DNA of 64,000 nucleotides from positions 3,906,001 to 3,970,000 of the forward strand of contig NZ_AP025739.1 of assembly GCF_003574315.2 (NCBI RefSeq), given 5' to 3'. The translations under genes were made by a program, and so were the position numbers. Source of the DNA: Capsulimonas corticalis. GTDB lineage: Bacteria; Armatimonadota; Armatimonadia; Armatimonadales; Capsulimonadaceae. Below the pieces are notes generated by a model that saw only the letters and a list, made by a program, of their open reading frames with translations, ran no database searches and was not told the DNA's origin. Every line of letters starts with the position of its first letter. Positions within the stretch are counted from its first letter, which is position 1. Shown one piece after another: positions 45,828 through 53,150 of the stretch.

Positions 45828-46382
45828 TCAGGCGGCGAGCCGTATCGCGCCCATCGGCAGTACGGCTTCCACCGCCTCCAGCGCCGTATCCACCACGGTC
45901 AGGTGATGCAGGTGTTGAGCGCCAACCGCCAGGGTCTGCGTGCAGGCGTCCAGCCACGGCTCCCAGACATCGCGTCCGACAAGCACTAGCGGCCGGGGCG
46001 TCGCAACATGCATCGTCAGGCAGTTCCAGACCAGCGTCACCTCCACCAGCGTTCCCACGCCGCCGCGTACGGCAATAAAGCCCGCGGAGCCCTCGATCAA
46101 TCCCTGAAGCCGTCCAAAGAAATCATGCGTGGGCCGGGTCTCGGTGATGTAGTTGTTGATGGGAGAGGTGAGTTTGGACATGGTGACGCCGATGACGGAG
46201 CCGCCGGCCTCAAAGGCCGCCTGCGAGGCCGCCACCATGGCGCCCTGGTAGCCGCCGGTGGCGACCGTGTATCCCGCTTCGGCGAGCAATCGGCCGGCTT
46301 CCGCCGCCTGACGATACTCCAGGCTGTCCGGCGGGCACTGCGCGCCGCCGAAAATCGAAATGACTTTGTGATCCGTTTCCAT
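45828..46382 (-). CDS. LOG/TIGR00725-type nucleotide-binding protein
   Basis: The product is 184 aa with a Rossmann-like fold: ISIFGGAQCPPDS near 9-21, VATGGYQGAMVAASQAAF near 40-57, and RGGVGTLVEVTLVWN near 108-122, a variant of the PGGxGTxxE motif of LOG (cytokinin-activating) phosphoribohydrolases. The conserved Pro is Arg and Glu remains. The substrate is probably a nucleoside monophosphate, but that is family inference. ATG follows a GATAAT box by 5 nt and no ribosome site is seen. It is convergent with the debranching gene (7 bp apart). Confidence 0.75.
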   Translation of the reverse strand: METDHKVISIFGGAQCPPDSLEYRQAAEAGRLLAEAGYTVATGGYQGAMVAASQAAFEAGGSVIGVTMSKLTSPINNYITETRPTHDFFGRLQGLIEGSAGFIAVRGGVGTLVEVTLVWNCLTMHVATPRPLVLVGRDVWEPWLDACTQTLAVGAQHLHHLTVVDTALEAVEAVLPMGAIRLAA

Positions 46383-46461: not shown

Positions 46462-47394
46462 GTGGGAATTTACGAACATCTGAAGCACTTTGGCGGGAAG
46501 CCGGTCGTCAACTGGGAGTCGGGAGACTTCCTGGAAAATCCGAGCAAAATGGCTTACCGCATCAGCATTTCCTGGGAAGAGAATGACGCGGACGCTAAGT
46601 GGACCGACAAATTCTCGCAGTTTCTCTCCGAGCCGAATGTCGGGGAAGTGACGGCGATCATCGTCGGCCCCTGGGAAGGCGCGATGGATTCCAGCGGCGC
46701 CTCCGAATCCGCCGTGGAGGCGCTTGTCGCCGCGCACGGCAAGCTTCCCAATCTTCAGGCGCTCTTTGTCGGCGAAATCCTGGCCGAAGAGGCCGAGATC
46801 TCCTGGATCCAGCAGTCCGATCTCTCCGCGCTCTTCAACGCCTACCCGCTGCTGGAGACGTTTTACGCGCGCGGCGGCAACGGCCTCAATCTGGGCTCGC
46901 CCACGCACGCGCTTTTGAAGACGCTGGTGGTGCAGTCGGGCGGCTTGGACGCTGAAGTCGTGCGCGAGGTCCTCGGCGCGTCCCTTCCGGCCCTCGAGCA
47001 TCTGGAGCTATGGCTGGGCGACAGCAGCTACGGCGCGACAACGACCGTCGACGATCTGGGACCGCTCTTGAGCGGCGCGCTGTTCCCAGGTCTCAAATAC
47101 CTAGGGCTTTGCGATGCTGAGATCTCCGACGAGATCGCCGCCGCCATCGCGACGGCCCCAATTCTGGGGCAGATCGAAGTGCTGGACCTCTCGCTGGGAA
47201 CGCTTGGCGACGACGGCGCGCTGGCGCTGATCTCCGCGCCGTCGCTCGGCAAACTTCGCCATCTGGATATTCACCATCACTATGTCACTCCTGAAGTTGT
47301 CGAACGACTCCTGGCGCTTCCGATCTCCGTGGATGCGACCGGGCCGGAGACCGCGCACGATGACGAAGATCGCTATGTCGCCGTTTCGGAATAA
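46462..47394 (+). CDS. STM4015-family leucine-rich repeat protein
   Basis: The product is 310 aa, GTG start, with GAGAGGA 8 nt upstream. It has no signal peptide. An N-terminal part of about 110 residues (FLSEPNVGEVTAIIVGPWEG) precedes LRR-type units: LPNLQALFVGEI, YPLLETFYARGG, LPALEHLELWLG, FPGLKYLGLCDAEIS, IEVLDLSLGTLGDDG and LGKLRHLDIHHHYVT. The order of genes that follows (ATP-grasp, alkaline phosphatase-like, two radical SAM) is that of the Salmonella STM4015-4011 cluster, so I name it by that family. Its function is unknown. It may serve as scaffold or substrate for the radical SAM enzymes (inference). Confidence 0.8.
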   Translation: MGIYEHLKHFGGKPVVNWESGDFLENPSKMAYRISISWEENDADAKWTDKFSQFLSEPNVGEVTAIIVGPWEGAMDSSGASESAVEALVAAHGKLPNLQALFVGEILAEEAEISWIQQSDLSALFNAYPLLETFYARGGNGLNLGSPTHALLKTLVVQSGGLDAEVVREVLGASLPALEHLELWLGDSSYGATTTVDDLGPLLSGALFPGLKYLGLCDAEISDEIAAAIATAPILGQIEVLDLSLGTLGDDGALALISAPSLGKLRHLDIHHHYVTPEVVERLLALPISVDATGPETAHDDEDRYVAVSE

Positions 47395-47397
47395 CGC

Positions 47398-48537
47398 GTG
47401 TCCTCCTATGTGATCGTCGGCAACCCGGGCGGCAACCGCATCGCCTTCTTCCAGGAGGCGCTGGAGCGCCGGAGCCTGCCGCCGGCGCGCGTCGCCGCCT
47501 GGGCGGATATTATCGAAGGCCGTGCGCGGTTGCGGGACATCGTGCGCGCCGGCGACTGCGTTCGCATCGAATCGCCGGGCCGGGATTTCGAAGTCGAACG
47601 CCTGCTGCTCGCGGCGGGCGCTTCCGAGACGCCGTCCGGCGAAGGTCTGTCCCCCGAAGAAGCCCGGAGTCTGGCGTTTGAGCGTGGGCGCATCTGGTTT
47701 CCGCGCCAATGGTATTTGGGCTTTCAGTGCGTTCTGAGACAGATCGAACAGCAGCTCTCCGAGTGTCCCGCGCATCGATTGACGAACGGTCTCAGCGACA
47801 TCGCCGTGATGTTCGACAAAGCGCAAACGCATGAACGCCTGCGCTCGGCGGGCGTCTCCGTTCCGGAGGCGTTCACGAACGTGCGGTCATTCGCGGATCT
47901 GACCGCACGATTGCAGCAAGCGGGATGGGGACGTGTTTTCGTCAAGCTCGCGCACGGCTCCAGCGCCTCCGGCGTGGCGGCTCTGCGCACCGACGGACGC
48001 CGAATGCAGGCGACGACCACCGTCGAGATCGTCCGCGCCGGCGATGAATTGCGACTTTACAACTCGCGACGTCTCAGAACCTACAACGATCCCAGGGAGA
48101 TCGCCGAGTTGATCGACGCGCTCTGCCGCCATGGCGTCCATGTCGAGCGCTGGCTGCCGAAGGCGGCGTTCGGCGACGCCGGCTTCGATCTGCGCGTGGT
48201 GACCATCGGCGGCCGCGCCCGGCACACCGTCGTCCGCCAAAGCCACAGCCCGATGACCAACCTGCATCTGCTCAACACGCGCGGTGATTTGGAAGCGGTG
48301 AAAGAACGGATGGGGTCGTCTGCCTGGGACGCGGCCATAATGACCTGCGAACGCGCCGCCGCCTGCTTCCCGGCAAGCCTGCACGCCGGCGTGGACCTCT
48401 GCGTGACGCCTAGCTTCCGCCACCACGCCGTTCTGGAAGTCAACGCCTTCGGCGACCTGCTGCCGCGCGTCCTGCACGACGGCATGGATACCTACGAGGC
48501 GGAAATCCGCGCCTTTGCGAATAGGGAAGAGTTGTGA
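47398..48537 (+). CDS. STM4014-family ATP-grasp-like protein
   Basis: The product is 379 aa from a GTG three bases after the previous stop. The C-terminal half looks like ATP-grasp: GWGRVFVKLAHGSSASGV near 177-194 (the lysine that binds ATP), HVERWLPKAAFGDAGFDLRV near 240-259, and the metal-binding end DLCVTPSFRHHAVLEVNAFGD near 333-353. ATP-grasp enzymes join a carboxylate to an amine or thiol through an acyl phosphate. The N-terminal 130 residues are a Rossmann-like pre-ATP-grasp domain (YVIVGNPGGNRIAFF). Substrate unknown. It overlaps the next gene. Confidence 0.78.
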   Translation: MSSYVIVGNPGGNRIAFFQEALERRSLPPARVAAWADIIEGRARLRDIVRAGDCVRIESPGRDFEVERLLLAAGASETPSGEGLSPEEARSLAFERGRIWFPRQWYLGFQCVLRQIEQQLSECPAHRLTNGLSDIAVMFDKAQTHERLRSAGVSVPEAFTNVRSFADLTARLQQAGWGRVFVKLAHGSSASGVAALRTDGRRMQATTTVEIVRAGDELRLYNSRRLRTYNDPREIAELIDALCRHGVHVERWLPKAAFGDAGFDLRVVTIGGRARHTVVRQSHSPMTNLHLLNTRGDLEAVKERMGSSAWDAAIMTCERAAACFPASLHAGVDLCVTPSFRHHAVLEVNAFGDLLPRVLHDGMDTYEAEIRAFANREEL

Positions 48538-49346
48538 TGATCGACGCAAAGGCGCTGGTTGGGACGCATGATATTTTATTGATCACGCTGGATACCCTGC
48601 GTTACGATGTCGCCTGCCGGGCTTTGGCCGAAGGGCAAACTCCGAACCTGGCGGCGCTGCTGCCGGGCGGACAGTGGGAGGAGCGCCATTCGCCGGGCAG
48701 CTTCACTTACGCCGCGCATCACGCGTTTTTCGCCGGTTTTCTGCCGACGCCCGTGACGCCCGGTCCACATGAGCGGCTGTTCGCCGCCGCGTTCGCCGGC
48801 AGCGAAACGACCGGGGAGCGGACCTGTGTTTTTGACACGCCGGACATCGTCAGCGGCTTGACGCGGCGCGGATACCAGACCCTTTGTATTGGCGGCGTCG
48901 GCTTCTTCAATCAGCAGACGCCGCTGGGAACGGTGCTGCCGGGGCTGTTCGCCGAAAGCCACTGGAGCACTCGGATGGGCGTCACCGATTTACGCTCGAC
49001 CGAGCATCAAGTCCGTCTGGCCCGCGAACTGCTGGGGAAGCGCGCATCGGGCGAGCGCGTCTTTTTGTTTGTGAATATTTCCGCGCTGCACCAGCCCAAT
49101 TGCGGCTACGCGCCCGGCGCGACGACGGATAGTCCGGAGACGCAGGCGGCGGCGCTGGCGTATGTGGATAGCCAATTGCCGCCGCTCTTTGCGGCCATGC
49201 ATTCACGAGGACCGTCGCTGGTGGTGATCTGTTCGGATCACGGGACGGCCTACGGTGAGGATGGCTTTACCGGCCATCGCGTTGGCCTGCCCGTCGTCTG
49301 GACCGTTCCCTACGCCGAGTTCATATTGCCCGCAGATTCCAGGTAA
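48534..49346 (+). CDS. STM4013/SEN3800-family hydrolase, alkaline phosphatase superfamily
   Basis: The product is 269-270 aa; either GTG 48534 or ATG 48537 can be the start, both overlapping the previous stop (GTGATGA). Metal-binding motifs of the alkaline phosphatase/sulfatase fold are seen: ITLDTLRYDVA near 17-27 and ICSDHGTAYGED near 233-244, with a further His in TGHRVGLP. The nucleophile position falls in HSPGSFTYAAHHAFFAG, which has Ser/Thr but not the sulfatase CxPxR motif, so it is not an ordinary sulfatase. It could act on phosphoryl or phosphonate groups (inference). It has no signal peptide, so it acts in the cytoplasm. Confidence 0.78.
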   Translation: MMIDAKALVGTHDILLITLDTLRYDVACRALAEGQTPNLAALLPGGQWEERHSPGSFTYAAHHAFFAGFLPTPVTPGPHERLFAAAFAGSETTGERTCVFDTPDIVSGLTRRGYQTLCIGGVGFFNQQTPLGTVLPGLFAESHWSTRMGVTDLRSTEHQVRLARELLGKRASGERVFLFVNISALHQPNCGYAPGATTDSPETQAAALAYVDSQLPPLFAAMHSRGPSLVVICSDHGTAYGEDGFTGHRVGLPVVWTVPYAEFILPADSR

Positions 49347-49350
49347 GACC

Positions 49351-50676
49351 ATGATCCCCACGCTCTCAGAAATGCTGTCGGACACGCCCTATGTCGGGTA
49401 CGCCTACTCTTACCCGCACAAGATGGCGTATCGCTCGCTGGACCCGCCGATCCTCTTGCGCGATCTGTGGGCGGGCGAACGCCGAGACGCGCTCTTTCTC
49501 TATCTGCACATCCCCTTCTGCGAGATGCGCTGCGGCTTCTGCAACCTCTTCACAACCGCCAACCCGGCGGCGACGCTGGAGCGGCAGTATCTGGACGCCC
49601 TGCGCCGGCAGGCCCTGCGCGTGCGCGATGCGCTGGGCGACTTCCAAATCGCGCGCATGGCGATCGGCGGCGGGACGCCCACATATCTGGAGCCGGACGA
49701 TCTCAATAGCCTGTTCGATCTGACCTCCGAACTCTTCGGAGTCCATGGCGGCGTTCCAACTTCCGTGGAGACATCGCCGCGCACCGCGACGCCCGAGCGT
49801 CTGCAAGTGTTGGCGGACCGAGGCGTGGACCGCGTCAGCATGGGCGTCCAGAGCTTCGTCCCCGCCGAGGCCGCCGCCGCCGGACGCGGGCAGGAGACGG
49901 AGCTTGTCACACGGGCGCTGGAAACGATCCGCGCCGCGCGCATTCCGACACTCAATATCGATTTGATCTATGGGCTGCCCGGCCAGACGGTACAGACGTG
50001 GCTGCATTCGCTGGAAGTCGCTCTGCGCTCTGCGCCCGAGGAGTTATATCTTTATCCGCTCTATGTACGCCCTCTGACGGGCCTGAGCCGCGTGGAGCGC
50101 GAGCGACAGGATGTGCGCCTCGCGTGCTACCGGGCGGGACGTGAGTTTCTTCTTTCGTCGGGATACATGCAAGTCTCCATGCGTATGTTCCGCGCCGCGC
50201 ACGCGCCGGACGCATCAAACGTCGGCCCGGTCTACTGCTGCCAGGACGACGGCATGGTCGGCCTCGGCTGCGGCGCTCGCTCTTATACGCGCGAAGTCCA
50301 CTATTCCCGTGAGTACGCCGTCGGCCGCACCAGCGTCAAAGGGGTTCTGCAAGACTACCTGGCGCGTCCCGATGCGGCGTTCGATATCGCCGACTACGGC
50401 GTGCGTCTGACGGGTGAAGAACAGCGCCGCCGATACGTCATCAGCACGATCTTGCAGTGTGAGGGCCTGGACGAAGCGGCGTACTTCGATCGCTTTGGGG
50501 CGCGGGTCTGGGAGGATCTGCCGCAGCTCGCCGAACTGGAGCCGCTGGGATTGGCGACGCGGGGGGACGGGAAGTTAGCGCTGACGGAGTTCGGTGTCGA
50601 GCGCTCAGACACCATCGGTCCTTGGCTTTACTCGGAAGCCGCGCGCCGGCAGTCGGAGGAGTTTGTGCTGCTATGA
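49351..50676 (+). CDS. STM4012-family radical SAM protein (HemN-like)
   Basis: The product is 441 aa from ATG 49351, 4 bp after the previous stop, with AGGTAAG upstream. The radical SAM cluster motif is CEMRCGFC (CxxxCxxC) near residues 71-78, preceded by LYLHIPF as in HemN-type enzymes. IGGGTPTYLEP near 113-123, RVSMGVQSFVP near 169-179 and NIDLIYGLPGQT near 207-218 are further HemN-family motifs. Coproporphyrinogen dehydrogenases have these, but relatives include methyltransferases and cyclopropanases, so the name coproporphyrinogen oxidase should not be assumed. Stop overlaps the next ATG. Confidence 0.85.
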   Translation: MIPTLSEMLSDTPYVGYAYSYPHKMAYRSLDPPILLRDLWAGERRDALFLYLHIPFCEMRCGFCNLFTTANPAATLERQYLDALRRQALRVRDALGDFQIARMAIGGGTPTYLEPDDLNSLFDLTSELFGVHGGVPTSVETSPRTATPERLQVLADRGVDRVSMGVQSFVPAEAAAAGRGQETELVTRALETIRAARIPTLNIDLIYGLPGQTVQTWLHSLEVALRSAPEELYLYPLYVRPLTGLSRVERERQDVRLACYRAGREFLLSSGYMQVSMRMFRAAHAPDASNVGPVYCCQDDGMVGLGCGARSYTREVHYSREYAVGRTSVKGVLQDYLARPDAAFDIADYGVRLTGEEQRRRYVISTILQCEGLDEAAYFDRFGARVWEDLPQLAELEPLGLATRGDGKLALTEFGVERSDTIGPWLYSEAARRQSEEFVLL

Positions 50677-51557
50677 CGCCGACCCTGCGCATTCTCTATC
50701 GTGGGCCATTGTCCAGCTGCAACTACGGCTGCGAATACTGCCCGTTCGCCAAGCATACGGAAATCGACGCCGAGCACGACGCCGACCGCCGCGCATTGGA
50801 CCGTTTTGTCGCGTGGGTCGGGGAGCAGCGCGATCGACGGATCTCCGTGCTATTCACGCCGTGGGGCGAAGCGCTCGTCCGCAAACGATATCAGGACGCG
50901 ATTGTGACTCTGACAAATATGGAGCACGTCGAGAAGATCGCGATCCAGACGAATCTCTCCTGTCGACTGGACTGGGTGGAGCGCTGCGATAAGAGCAAGC
51001 TGGGGCTCTGGGCGACCTACCATCCGGGGGAAGTGGCGCGGGAGAAGTTCCTGGCGCAGTGCCGCGACGCCGACCGGCGCGGGGTGCGCTTCAGCGTTGG
51101 GAGCGTGGGTCTCAAGGAGCATCAAGAGGATATTGCCGCGCTTCGTGACGCGCTACCCGAGCATATCTATCTCTGGGTAAACGCCTATAAGCGCCAAATG
51201 GATTACTACACACCGGATGAGATCGCGCGCTATACGCAAATCGATTCCTTGTTTCCGATCAATACCGAGCGCCATCCGAGCGAAGGCGAGCCGTGTCAGG
51301 CCGGGCAGACGGCCATTTCGGTGGACGGCGACGGCGTGATGCGCCGCTGTCACTTCGTCCGCGACCCCATCGGGAATATTTACGATTCGAATTTTGCCGA
51401 CGCCTTGCAGCCGCGCCTTTGTAAAAACGAGACCTGCGGCTGCCACATCGGCTATGTCCATATGGACCGGCTCGGCCAGTACGAGCTTTACGGGGATGGG
51501 CTCCTCGAACGCATCCCCGTAAAGCCGGTCTGGCGCGCGTTGCCTATGTCTCCATGA
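50673..51557 (+). CDS. STM4011-family radical SAM protein
   Basis: The product is 294 aa and overlaps the previous stop (ATGA). The motif CNYGCEYC (CxxxCxxC) is at 16-23, near the N-terminus, with PLSS directly before. FTPWGEALVRKRY near 60 stands in place of the GGE motif. The C-terminal part has several cysteines in GVMRRCHFV and RLCKNETCGCHIG (near 265-277), the pattern of an extra cluster-binding (SPASM-like or Twitch) region. Radical SAM enzymes with such regions often modify peptides, but no precursor peptide was found. It ends 14 bases inside the convergent LRR gene. Confidence 0.85.
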   Translation: MTPTLRILYRGPLSSCNYGCEYCPFAKHTEIDAEHDADRRALDRFVAWVGEQRDRRISVLFTPWGEALVRKRYQDAIVTLTNMEHVEKIAIQTNLSCRLDWVERCDKSKLGLWATYHPGEVAREKFLAQCRDADRRGVRFSVGSVGLKEHQEDIAALRDALPEHIYLWVNAYKRQMDYYTPDEIARYTQIDSLFPINTERHPSEGEPCQAGQTAISVDGDGVMRRCHFVRDPIGNIYDSNFADALQPRLCKNETCGCHIGYVHMDRLGQYELYGDGLLERIPVKPVWRALPMSP

Positions 51558-52647
51558 TCGGCCGGTAGTCGTCCGTGTTGTCGAACCCCGCGATCCACGC
51601 CGCCGCCTGGCGGCAGGTCCTGGTTCGCGGAGGAACCCGGATGATATATTGCCGACCCGTGGAAGGGCACAGCACGGAGATGCAGACCAGCGCTTCGTCG
51701 TTGATCATCGGGACGCGCAGCAGGCGGCGCTCACCGCCCGGATCCGTGTCCCGGTCCAGCTCGTCGGCATGGGCGTCCGACAGAAAACGCTCGTAGCCCA
51801 TGCGCTCCAGCAGCACGCGCCGCAGCTCCGCGTTGGTTGTTCCCAGAACTTCCCGGGCGGTGATCGTTTCGGGATGAAAGGCGATACGCGCGTCGATCGG
51901 CACGCCGCGCCAGCGCAGGCGCGCTCCCGCGAGCTGCGCCGGAAGCTCGGTGATCTGCGTGTCGGCCAGATCGATCCAGGAGCTGACGCGCAGGGTCTGC
52001 GGCAGCGCCGTGAGACTCTCACAGCCGCGCAGGTCTAATTGGGCGAGCTGCGTCATCCAGGACGGCAGGTACGACAGCGCGCGGCAGCCTCGCGCGTTCA
52101 ATCGCCCGACGCGCACCGTCGCTTGTTCCGGCCACCGGGCCAATCGAGTGCATCCGCTGATGTCCAGGAAATAAACTTCCAGACCTTCCGGAAGCGCGCG
52201 CAGACTGGCGCAGCCTTGCAGCGCCAGCGATCCGACCTTTAGTCCTTCCGGAAGGCTCTGAAGCTCCGCGCAGCCCGTCAGATCCAGTCGGTACTCTACC
52301 TGAAGATCGGACGGCAGCGTGGTGATCGATGTATCGCGCAATGTTAACTCATAACAATGCAGCCGGCGGGGCAGCGATGTCAGGCCGTGACAGCCCGTGC
52401 AGTCCAGCCGTGTGGCGCGCAGCCCCTCGGGCAGCGACGTCAGGTTGGCGCATCCGCTCAGGTCCAGGCTGTCCACCCGCAGATCTTCGGGCAATTGTGT
52501 CAGCGTGCGGTTCCCGGCGAACGAGAGATGTCCGTGCACCCGAAGGCCGCGCGGCGCGCGCCCGGCCAGGATCATGGATTCGATCTGCGCGCGGTCGAAC
52601 GCCTGCGCGATCGATGGTGTGAGAATTCGATCCAAGGTGGTTGTCAT
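51544..52647 (-). CDS. Leucine-rich repeat protein with DUF6745-like C-terminus
   Basis: The product is 367 aa. Residues about 35-245 hold about ten short LRR units of the type LTSLPEGLRATRLDCTGC, with alternating LDLSGC/LDLTGC strands. The C-terminal 110 residues (NAELRRVLLERMGYERFLSD, then DPGGERRLLRVP and a late RQYIIRVPP, TCRQAAAWIAGF) form a separate conserved domain that resembles DUF6745. No signal peptide. GAGGA lies about 8 nt before the ATG. It is co-oriented with the small gene just upstream, and convergent with the STM4011-4015 operon, which contains another LRR protein. Function unknown. Confidence 0.75.
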   Translation of the reverse strand: MTTTLDRILTPSIAQAFDRAQIESMILAGRAPRGLRVHGHLSFAGNRTLTQLPEDLRVDSLDLSGCANLTSLPEGLRATRLDCTGCHGLTSLPRRLHCYELTLRDTSITTLPSDLQVEYRLDLTGCAELQSLPEGLKVGSLALQGCASLRALPEGLEVYFLDISGCTRLARWPEQATVRVGRLNARGCRALSYLPSWMTQLAQLDLRGCESLTALPQTLRVSSWIDLADTQITELPAQLAGARLRWRGVPIDARIAFHPETITAREVLGTTNAELRRVLLERMGYERFLSDAHADELDRDTDPGGERRLLRVPMINDEALVCISVLCPSTGRQYIIRVPPRTRTCRQAAAWIAGFDNTDDYRPIMET

Positions 52648-52661
52648 GGCGTCGTTCCTCT

Positions 52662-52961
52662 TTAATCGACAATCCGGCGGATGGCCTGCGGGGTATACTC
52701 GCGCTGATACCAGAACCGATAATCGCCGCGCGGCAGGGTGATCGGCTTGTGCTCCTCATGCACGACCCGCGCTTCGGGGGCCAGCACGCGGACGAAATAG
52801 CGGCCGTCGCGCTCATAAATCTCCGCCGTTCCGGGCTCTTCGATCCGGTGGCTATGCCCGGTCATCTCGCCATGCGCCAGCGTCGTTCCCGGCTTCGTCT
52901 CCGCCCCGGCGGGAATTTCGTCCACCGCCGCGATCATAATATCGCCATGTCGCCACATCAT
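52662..52961 (-). CDS. Small protein paired with the LRR/DUF6745-like gene
   Basis: The product is 99 aa. Start ATG at 52961 has AGGAGG 9 nt upstream (a second ATG follows directly). It is beta-rich: MWRHGDIMIAAVDEIPAG, LAHGEMTGHSHRIEEPG, YFVRVLAPEARVVHEEHKP and LPRGDYRFWYQREYTP. The many His residues (GHSHR, HEEH) could bind a metal. No known domain is recognised. It lies 14 bp before the LRR gene, so the two are probably translated from one mRNA. Earlier in-frame starts upstream lack a ribosome site. Confidence 0.65.
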   Translation of the reverse strand: MMWRHGDIMIAAVDEIPAGAETKPGTTLAHGEMTGHSHRIEEPGTAEIYERDGRYFVRVLAPEARVVHEEHKPITLPRGDYRFWYQREYTPQAIRRIVD

Positions 52962-53150
52962 TTGGTTACGCCTCCTGAACTCATTAGACCAAGTCTTGCC
53001 GGCAAGTGTTTTGCCTGGACCTATTGTCTCATATTCGCTCATGAGCCGCAAGAAGAACGCGTTTTCGGCGGCTGACGAACTTCCAAATTTCTCACCAAGT
53101 GAGAGTAAATTTCGAAAATCCTAAAAACTGTAATGATGGAGAATTGAACG

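Follow-up and report, generated by a model that had tools for sequence, protein, structure and literature searches.

In amino-group carrier systems, the ligases LysX and ArgX load LysW with an amino acid at its terminal Glu; LysW ends in EDWGE, and the γ-carboxyl group of its last residue is joined to the amino group of the substrate (PMC10433800, PMC9303977). RimK adds glutamates at the C-terminus of RpsF (PMC10092738), and in the biosynthesis of pearlins (3-thiaglutamate and 3-thiahomoleucine) an amino acid is placed on the C-terminus of a ribosomal peptide, rebuilt partly by radical S-adenosylmethionine (SAM) chemistry, and released (PMC9303977). Here we describe a five-gene cassette, STM4015-4011, in a 64,000-nucleotide stretch of the Capsulimonas corticalis genome (contig NZ_AP025739.1, positions 3,906,001 to 3,970,000 of the forward strand; hereafter the window), and propose, with a probability of roughly 0.58, that it specifies a carrier-protein pathway operating on the C-terminal Glu of a leucine-rich-repeat (LRR) protein.

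The five genes lie head to tail on the plus strand and, as read from the open reading frames (ORFs), span positions 46462-51557 of the window; the junctions are, in order, a gap of 3 bases, an overlap of 4, a gap of 4 and an overlap of 4. A preliminary description of this DNA had reported a head-to-tail operon with gaps or overlaps of 3-4 bp in the gene order of Salmonella STM4015-4011, and this is confirmed by the ORFs and by the curated NCBIfam cut-offs, a score above which defines family membership and which all five genes exceed. The motifs quoted there (CEMRCGFC, CNYGCEYC, EVNAFGD and SDHG) are likewise all found in the window proteins. To call the cassette an undescribed system was, however, too strong, as all five families already have names: STM4011-STM4015 are known as uncharacterised NCBI families, and the carrier reading is the new addition. 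The host genome is a single contig of 7.6 Mb with one STM4012 copy. The features of the cassette are:

46462..47394, plus strand: LRR protein of the STM4015 family, 310 residues, proposed carrier/substrate (NF038076, 323 bits versus a cut-off of 275)
47371..47391, plus strand: C-terminal peptide RYVAVSE of STM4015, an R[YF]x[AST][VLI][SGAT]E motif after an acidic linker of variable length
47389-47391, plus strand: codon gaa of Glu310, the nearly invariant terminal residue and proposed attachment site
47398..48537, plus strand: ATP-grasp ligase of the STM4014 family, 379 residues, proposed to act on Glu310 of STM4015 (NF038074, 416 versus 175 bits)
48534..49346, plus strand: hydrolase of the STM4013 family, alkaline phosphatase/sulfatase/nucleotide pyrophosphatase-phosphodiesterase superfamily, 270 residues (NF038075, 414 versus 250 bits; Pfam Sulfatase)
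49351..50676, plus strand: HemN-like radical SAM enzyme of the STM4012 family, 441 residues (NF006067, 575 versus 380 bits)
50673..51557, plus strand: radical SAM enzyme of the STM4011 family with a SPASM/twitch-like cysteine-rich C-terminal part, 294 residues (NF038073, 405 versus 200 bits)

Glu is the last residue throughout the first ten STM4015 homologues and in 83 of the 87 complete copies, a pattern that includes the window copy; departures from it are one copy extended by four residues, two tails from cyanobacteria and two sequences with a probable frameshift. The ends of STM4014, STM4013, STM4012 and STM4011 are variable, the commonest last residue of any of them reaching at most 49%. 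In STM4015 the last seven positions follow the pattern R-[YF]-x-[AST]-[VLI]-[SGAT]-E after poorly conserved acidic residues. Position -7 is Arg in 75 of 83 copies, position -6 is aromatic (Tyr in 63 and Phe in 15 of 83) and position -2 is Ser, Gly, Ala or Thr. The linker before this tail contains 43% Asp/Glu, compared with 15% in the body of the protein, and between 40 and 59 residues separate the last repeat from the C-terminal end across homologues. The motif is highly specific, matching 70 of 16,110 ORF ends, 69 of which belong to STM4015. In a Gemmata-type clade the tail xGDxE replaces RYxxVxE with retention of the terminal Glu, and the three xGDxE loci form one clade on the ligase tree (support 100/100). 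LRR paralogues from the same genomes that have neither tail served as a control and seldom end in Glu (about 4 of 30, by reading).

The terminal Glu is not the result of a ribosome-binding site: both Glu codons occur (GAG 55, GAA 28), the residue is retained also where STM4014 is not the next gene, and the remaining genes that overlap in this way encode proteins with other ends. Additional copies with RYxxVxE or GDxE tails are present away from the ligase gene. LRR proteins that end in xGD[FMW]E, with no ligase gene directly after them, were seen at L190 (412-1683), L191 (318-1496) and L172 (393-1619); such proteins in Planctomycetes are possibly extra carriers.

STM4014 adjoins STM4015 in most loci, and both its profile and its predicted fold resemble LysX. 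Searched against the PDB, the STM4014 profile returns LysX first (1uc8, 1.7e-6), followed by ArgX/LysX (3vpd) and RimK, and this ranking was reproduced with a second alignment. An AlphaFold model of STM4014 (predicted local distance difference test score, pLDDT, 95.9), for which, as for the other structure models, the alignment was built without rows from plasmid records, retrieves with Foldseek first the complex of ArgX with LysW and Glu (3vpb) and then LysX. On a DALI-like scale, the first eight entries are ArgX, RimK and LysX (Z 23.2-22.2), and glutathione synthetase comes next (21.4). The NCBIfam RimK models gave no match over cut-off, the only one recorded being TIGR02291 (RimK-related) with an E value of 0.09. 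In RimK, the terminal Glu of the polyglutamate chain is bound by R189 and N262 (PMC10092738). These residues align with R266 and N349 of STM4014, both of which are invariant in 46 homologues. N349 also occupies a general ATP-grasp position, so R266 is the more telling of the pair. Judged by profile and predicted fold, STM4014 is nearest to LysX/ArgX and RimK, i.e., to ligases that act on a protein C-terminal Glu.

A nearly invariant terminal Glu and an adjacent ligase of the type that uses a terminal Glu are two independent observations, and they indicate the same reaction. In the proposed pathway, the STM4015 LRR protein would serve as carrier. STM4014 would activate its C-terminal Glu as an acyl phosphate and then form an amide bond between the Glu and a small molecule that supplies the amino group and is probably an amino acid. 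Once tethered, this group would be remodelled by three enzymes, the SPASM-type STM4011, STM4012 as a HemN-like two-SAM enzyme and STM4013 with its phosphatase fold, and in many lineages also by a HAD phosphatase. We infer Glu as the ligation site, an amino acid as co-substrate, the order of the steps and whether the product is released or retained, and likewise the chemistry and the product of the pathway. The preliminary description had envisaged a cytoplasmic assembly line that possibly modifies the LRR protein; this part is supported and can be sharpened to the terminal Glu and STM4014, with the modification itself a predicted event.

The gene dosage is in agreement with such a role. Fifteen loci contain two to four STM4015 genes and one enzyme set, and the sole apparent enzyme duplication among them is a split STM4013 frame; several STM4015 copies per enzyme set are expected of a substrate, not of a catalytic subunit.

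In STM4013, the residues D19, T57, D234, H235 and H247 are invariant among homologues, and PDB profile matches are to arylsulfatase and nucleotide pyrophosphatase/phosphodiesterase. The presence of Thr at the place of the nucleophile, aligned to nucleotide pyrophosphatase, suggests an enzyme acting on phosphate esters more than a sulfatase. STM4012 matches HemN (1olt, 5e-59) and the methylase NocN (9p2u, 9e-38) by PDB profile. Its CxxxCxxC and GGGTP motifs and the residues E140, R161, R179, N202 and D204 are invariant, Q167 is nearly so, and R161, R179 and D204 align with R153, R171 and D196 of NocN. The NocN residue Tyr96, which contacts the second SAM (PMC12871812), has a non-equivalent counterpart in STM4012, so that one second-SAM contact is missing. 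The invariant SAM-site residues nonetheless make a two-SAM mechanism likely for STM4012. The cysteine-rich end of STM4011, to which the preliminary description had drawn attention, is real: in addition to the three radical SAM cysteines, C208, C226, C250, C255 and C257 are invariant in 54 homologues. The first extra pair has the spacing C-x12-G-x4-C, as in SPASM domains, and the protein shows a weak match to the SPASM-like part of SkfB (E 0.008) and NCBIfam near-hits to peptide maturases. The five additional cysteines may form a SPASM/twitch-like auxiliary cluster site.

A HAD-family phosphatase abuts STM4013, just upstream, in 12 loci of several phyla (L046, L054, L057, L061, L062, L065, L069, L070, L071, L074, L085 and L088). 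A Cof-type HAD comes after STM4011 in Salmonella and E. coli, and in Bacteroides STM4011 itself has an extension that reads as HAD-like.

At least 582 STM4011 relatives were returned by a scan of species genomes; 80 loci were retained from these and supplemented with plasmid records. This number of stretches with an STM4011 relative excludes a chance association. The cassette occurs in about 12 phyla, assigned by record title: Armatimonadota, Chloroflexota, Planctomycetota, Acidobacteriota, Cyanobacteriota, Myxococcota, Bacteroidota, Verrucomicrobiota, Actinomycetota, Deinococcota, Pseudomonadota and Bacillota. Its gene order is thus conserved across phyla, the absence of which the preliminary description had named as a ground for rejecting its proposal. 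The distribution is patchy, since within Armatimonadota just 5 of 151 genomes exceed the STM4013 cut-off, and on the ligase tree Salmonella and Bacteroides are paired across phyla with full support. In Salmonella, the cassette has the same five-gene order and adjoins typA and glnA; STM4011 is present in 154 of 5426 complete E. coli genomes (about 3%), and the one E. coli locus inspected holds the whole cassette in the same order between ompL and typA. The cassette was also seen in two Salmonella records labelled as plasmids, NZ_CP019203.1 (L037) and NZ_LN868945.1; at L037 it lies beside typA, glnA, glnL, glnG and hemN, which indicates either a chromosomal segment carried by a plasmid or an artefact of assembly.

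Three units recur among the loci: unit A (STM4015 and STM4014), unit B (STM4013, STM4012 and STM4011) and unit C (a DUF6745 protein and a small His-rich protein). Units A and B form a single operon in most loci, but several Planctomycetes, Verrucomicrobia and Myxococcus have the two units on different strands. Among 18 genomes that have unit B with no STM4015 nearby, 16 encode STM4014 elsewhere, mostly adjoining a tailed STM4015; the remaining two are a genome in which STM4015 is broken and a fragmentary draft. In Embleya sp. NBC_00888 (L149 5096-7390), a stop-to-stop frame of 765 residues holds both STM4014 and STM4013 and is a candidate fusion.

Unit C is represented next to the window cassette by two genes on the opposite strand:

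51544..52647, minus strand: LRR and DUF6745 protein, linked accessory, convergent with STM4011 (PF20530, 4.5e-24)
52662..53051, minus strand: small His-rich protein, about 98 residues from the likely start at 52958, with TGHSHR...HEEH motifs conserved in 18 homologues

A link to DUF6745-like LRR genes, raised in the preliminary description, is borne out: 34 of 87 loci have DUF6745 no more than 10 kb from the cassette, and the small protein, always paired with DUF6745 in the loci inspected, is found in the same 34. Of 13 linked genomes tested, 9 have a single DUF6745 gene, as does the genome of the window. The pair also occurs in Microcystis phages that lack the cassette; in phage LMM01, the homologue of the small protein ends in Asp and a DUF6745-like gene comes after it. 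Unit C is thus a module in its own right, although its link to the cassette is real.

Several observations weigh against the carrier pathway as formulated here. No LysK-like release peptidase is present in the cassette and no peptidase recurs in the neighbour clusters, these two being the scope of the search, and a peptidase elsewhere in the genome is possible. The Bacteroides form has three genes (STM4015, STM4014 and STM4011-HAD), and STM4012 and STM4013 are not always adjacent. In sequence STM4014 resembles LysX weakly (28-31 bits), and the top of the structural ranking is followed, within about 2-3 Z units, by D-Ala ligases, glutathione synthetase and inositol pyrophosphate kinases. Constant ends are not unique to STM4015, as the last residue is Thr in 32 of 34 DUF6745 proteins and Asp in all 34 small proteins; these ends are, however, continuous with their domain, unlike the STM4015 tail, and the Asp is not specific to the cassette, since the phage homologue ends in it too. 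Finally, the STM4015 model is predicted with high confidence (pLDDT 97, and 94 over the last ten residues), and its alignment with a solved homologue, an uncharacterised Bacteroides fragilis protein (2ra8, Z 33.7), extends to the final residue of the model. The tail is probably laid on the LRR domain and need not be a free arm. A well-ordered tail speaks against a swinging arm, not against ligation.

STM4015 might instead be the permanent bearer of a C-terminal prosthetic group that is attached by the ligase and built by the radical SAM enzymes, i.e., a holo-protein and not a transient carrier. We regard this as doubtful but worth keeping in mind; if true, the several LRR copies of a genome would be apoproteins that share a common maturation pathway. 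A route in which the substrate is the tail, by analogy with the maturation of PqqA or mycofactocin, is unlikely, with the radical SAM enzymes crosslinking or rebuilding the terminal Glu and the aromatic residue at -6 into a cofactor that stays on the LRR protein or is cut from it, and with STM4014 making an internal amide or adding one residue. Such a route would account for the conservation of the aromatic residue and of Arg at -7 besides the terminal Glu, and it fits the cysteine pattern of STM4011 and its near-hits to peptide maturases. The GDxE class, however, retains Glu alone, so the aromatic residue is not required throughout, and a LysX/RimK-type ligase is best accounted for by ligation to Glu. 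Slightly less plausible still is a terminal peptide that is never modified and serves for non-covalent docking or capping, with the LRR domain or a partner recognising the free carboxylate of the peptide while STM4014 makes a small-molecule amide independently. The ordered tail and the 2ra8 alignment agree with this, but the length of the linker varies by about 20 residues while the end is constant, one clade has altered the tail except for its last residue, and the neighbouring ligase is of a type that uses a protein C-terminal Glu.

Regulation of STM4015 by RimK-like polyglutamylation or tail extension, with the radical SAM enzymes acting on another substrate recruited by the LRR domain, appears improbable to us. 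RimK is indeed among the structures nearest to STM4014, and it glutamylates the C-terminus of RpsF (PMC10092738); the co-dependence of the ligase and radical SAM modules across genomes and the candidate STM4014-STM4013 fusion, however, argue for one pathway. We give little credence to a graspetide-like macrocyclisation, in which STM4014 would join the side chain of the Glu to a tail residue: Foldseek does match STM4014 to PsnB and MdnC, which are graspetide ligases, but LysX, ArgX and RimK rank higher by Z, and the tail has no conserved Ser/Thr/Lys acceptor, only Glu being fixed. The chance that the pathway belongs to porphyrin or haem chemistry is negligible. Despite the strong profile match to HemN, STM4012 belongs to an NCBI equivalog of its own and falls far under the hemN equivalog cut-off (TIGR00538, 142 versus 325 bits), and the peptide methylase NocN matches it as well; a genuine hemN lies a few genes from the cassette in the Salmonella and E. 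coli loci, and the neighbourhood clusters show no further recurrent haem gene. Placement in porphyrin synthesis, which the preliminary description had given as an example of an established pathway that would speak against its proposal, is therefore not what the profile searches return.

A role in anti-phage defence and an origin from phage were considered and rejected. PADLOC gave no meaningful match to anti-phage defence, the best being a partial radical SAM match (5e-8), and the five genes have no PHROG match beyond generic radical SAM. Upstream of the cassette, a LOG-like gene (TIGR00730/SLOG cluster4; 45828-46382, minus strand) is divergent from STM4015, with starts about 80 bases apart. 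A search of the window for RNA elements found a tRNA alone.

No paper describing the function of STM4015-4011 was found in the literature that was searched, and two papers that name a gene of the set do so in genome-wide table entries only. The five families have been named but functionless for years, despite a distribution over about 12 phyla that takes in Salmonella and about 3% of complete E. coli genomes. The carrier proposal specifies a residue, a ligase and a reaction class, which makes the system directly testable. If it is correct, an unrelated scaffold has come to support carrier biosynthesis on a C-terminal Glu and combines it with radical SAM chemistry, so that a widespread metabolite or protein-bound cofactor awaits discovery.

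By the curated NCBIfam cut-offs, the five proteins are full members of STM4011-STM4015, and comparison with characterised systems is one of partial likeness. In the RimK/RpsF system, an ATP-grasp ligase from the fold group of STM4014 extends a protein at its C-terminal Glu, as is proposed for the cassette; however, RimK works alone (or with RimA/RimB) on a ribosomal target and adds glutamates only, whereas here the target would be an LRR protein whose operon also encodes two radical SAM enzymes. Pearlin biosynthesis resembles the proposed pathway in C-terminal attachment to a carrier and in rebuilding partly by radical SAM enzymes, but there Cys is added to a short peptide by a dedicated peptide-extending enzyme, in place of an ATP-grasp ligase and a folded repeat protein. 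Among the class C radical SAM methylases (NosN/NocN, C10P), STM4012 matches NocN and shares R161, R179 and D204, but not Tyr96. The conserved pairs of Asp/Glu with Ser/Thr/Lys in graspetide cores have no equivalent in the STM4015 tail. The closest likeness is to the amino-group carrier systems (LysW with LysX/ArgX; Vzb22 of vazabitide), which likewise combine a folded protein, an acidic C-terminal stretch and a C-terminal Glu with a dedicated ATP-grasp ligase nearby and tailoring enzymes in the same cluster. Compared with LysW, STM4015 is an LRR protein of about 300 residues and not a small zinc protein, its LRR fold has no invariant Cys among the homologues and replaces the zinc-binding Cys domain, and its tail is R[YF]x[AST][VLI][SGAT]E or xGDxE in place of EDWGE; the tailoring enzymes would be radical SAM enzymes and phosphatases, and no kinase, reductase, aminotransferase or release peptidase is seen in the cassette. 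STM4015 is therefore like the amino-group carrier proteins in logic and, because the LysW zinc domain and EDWGE are absent, stands outside that family.

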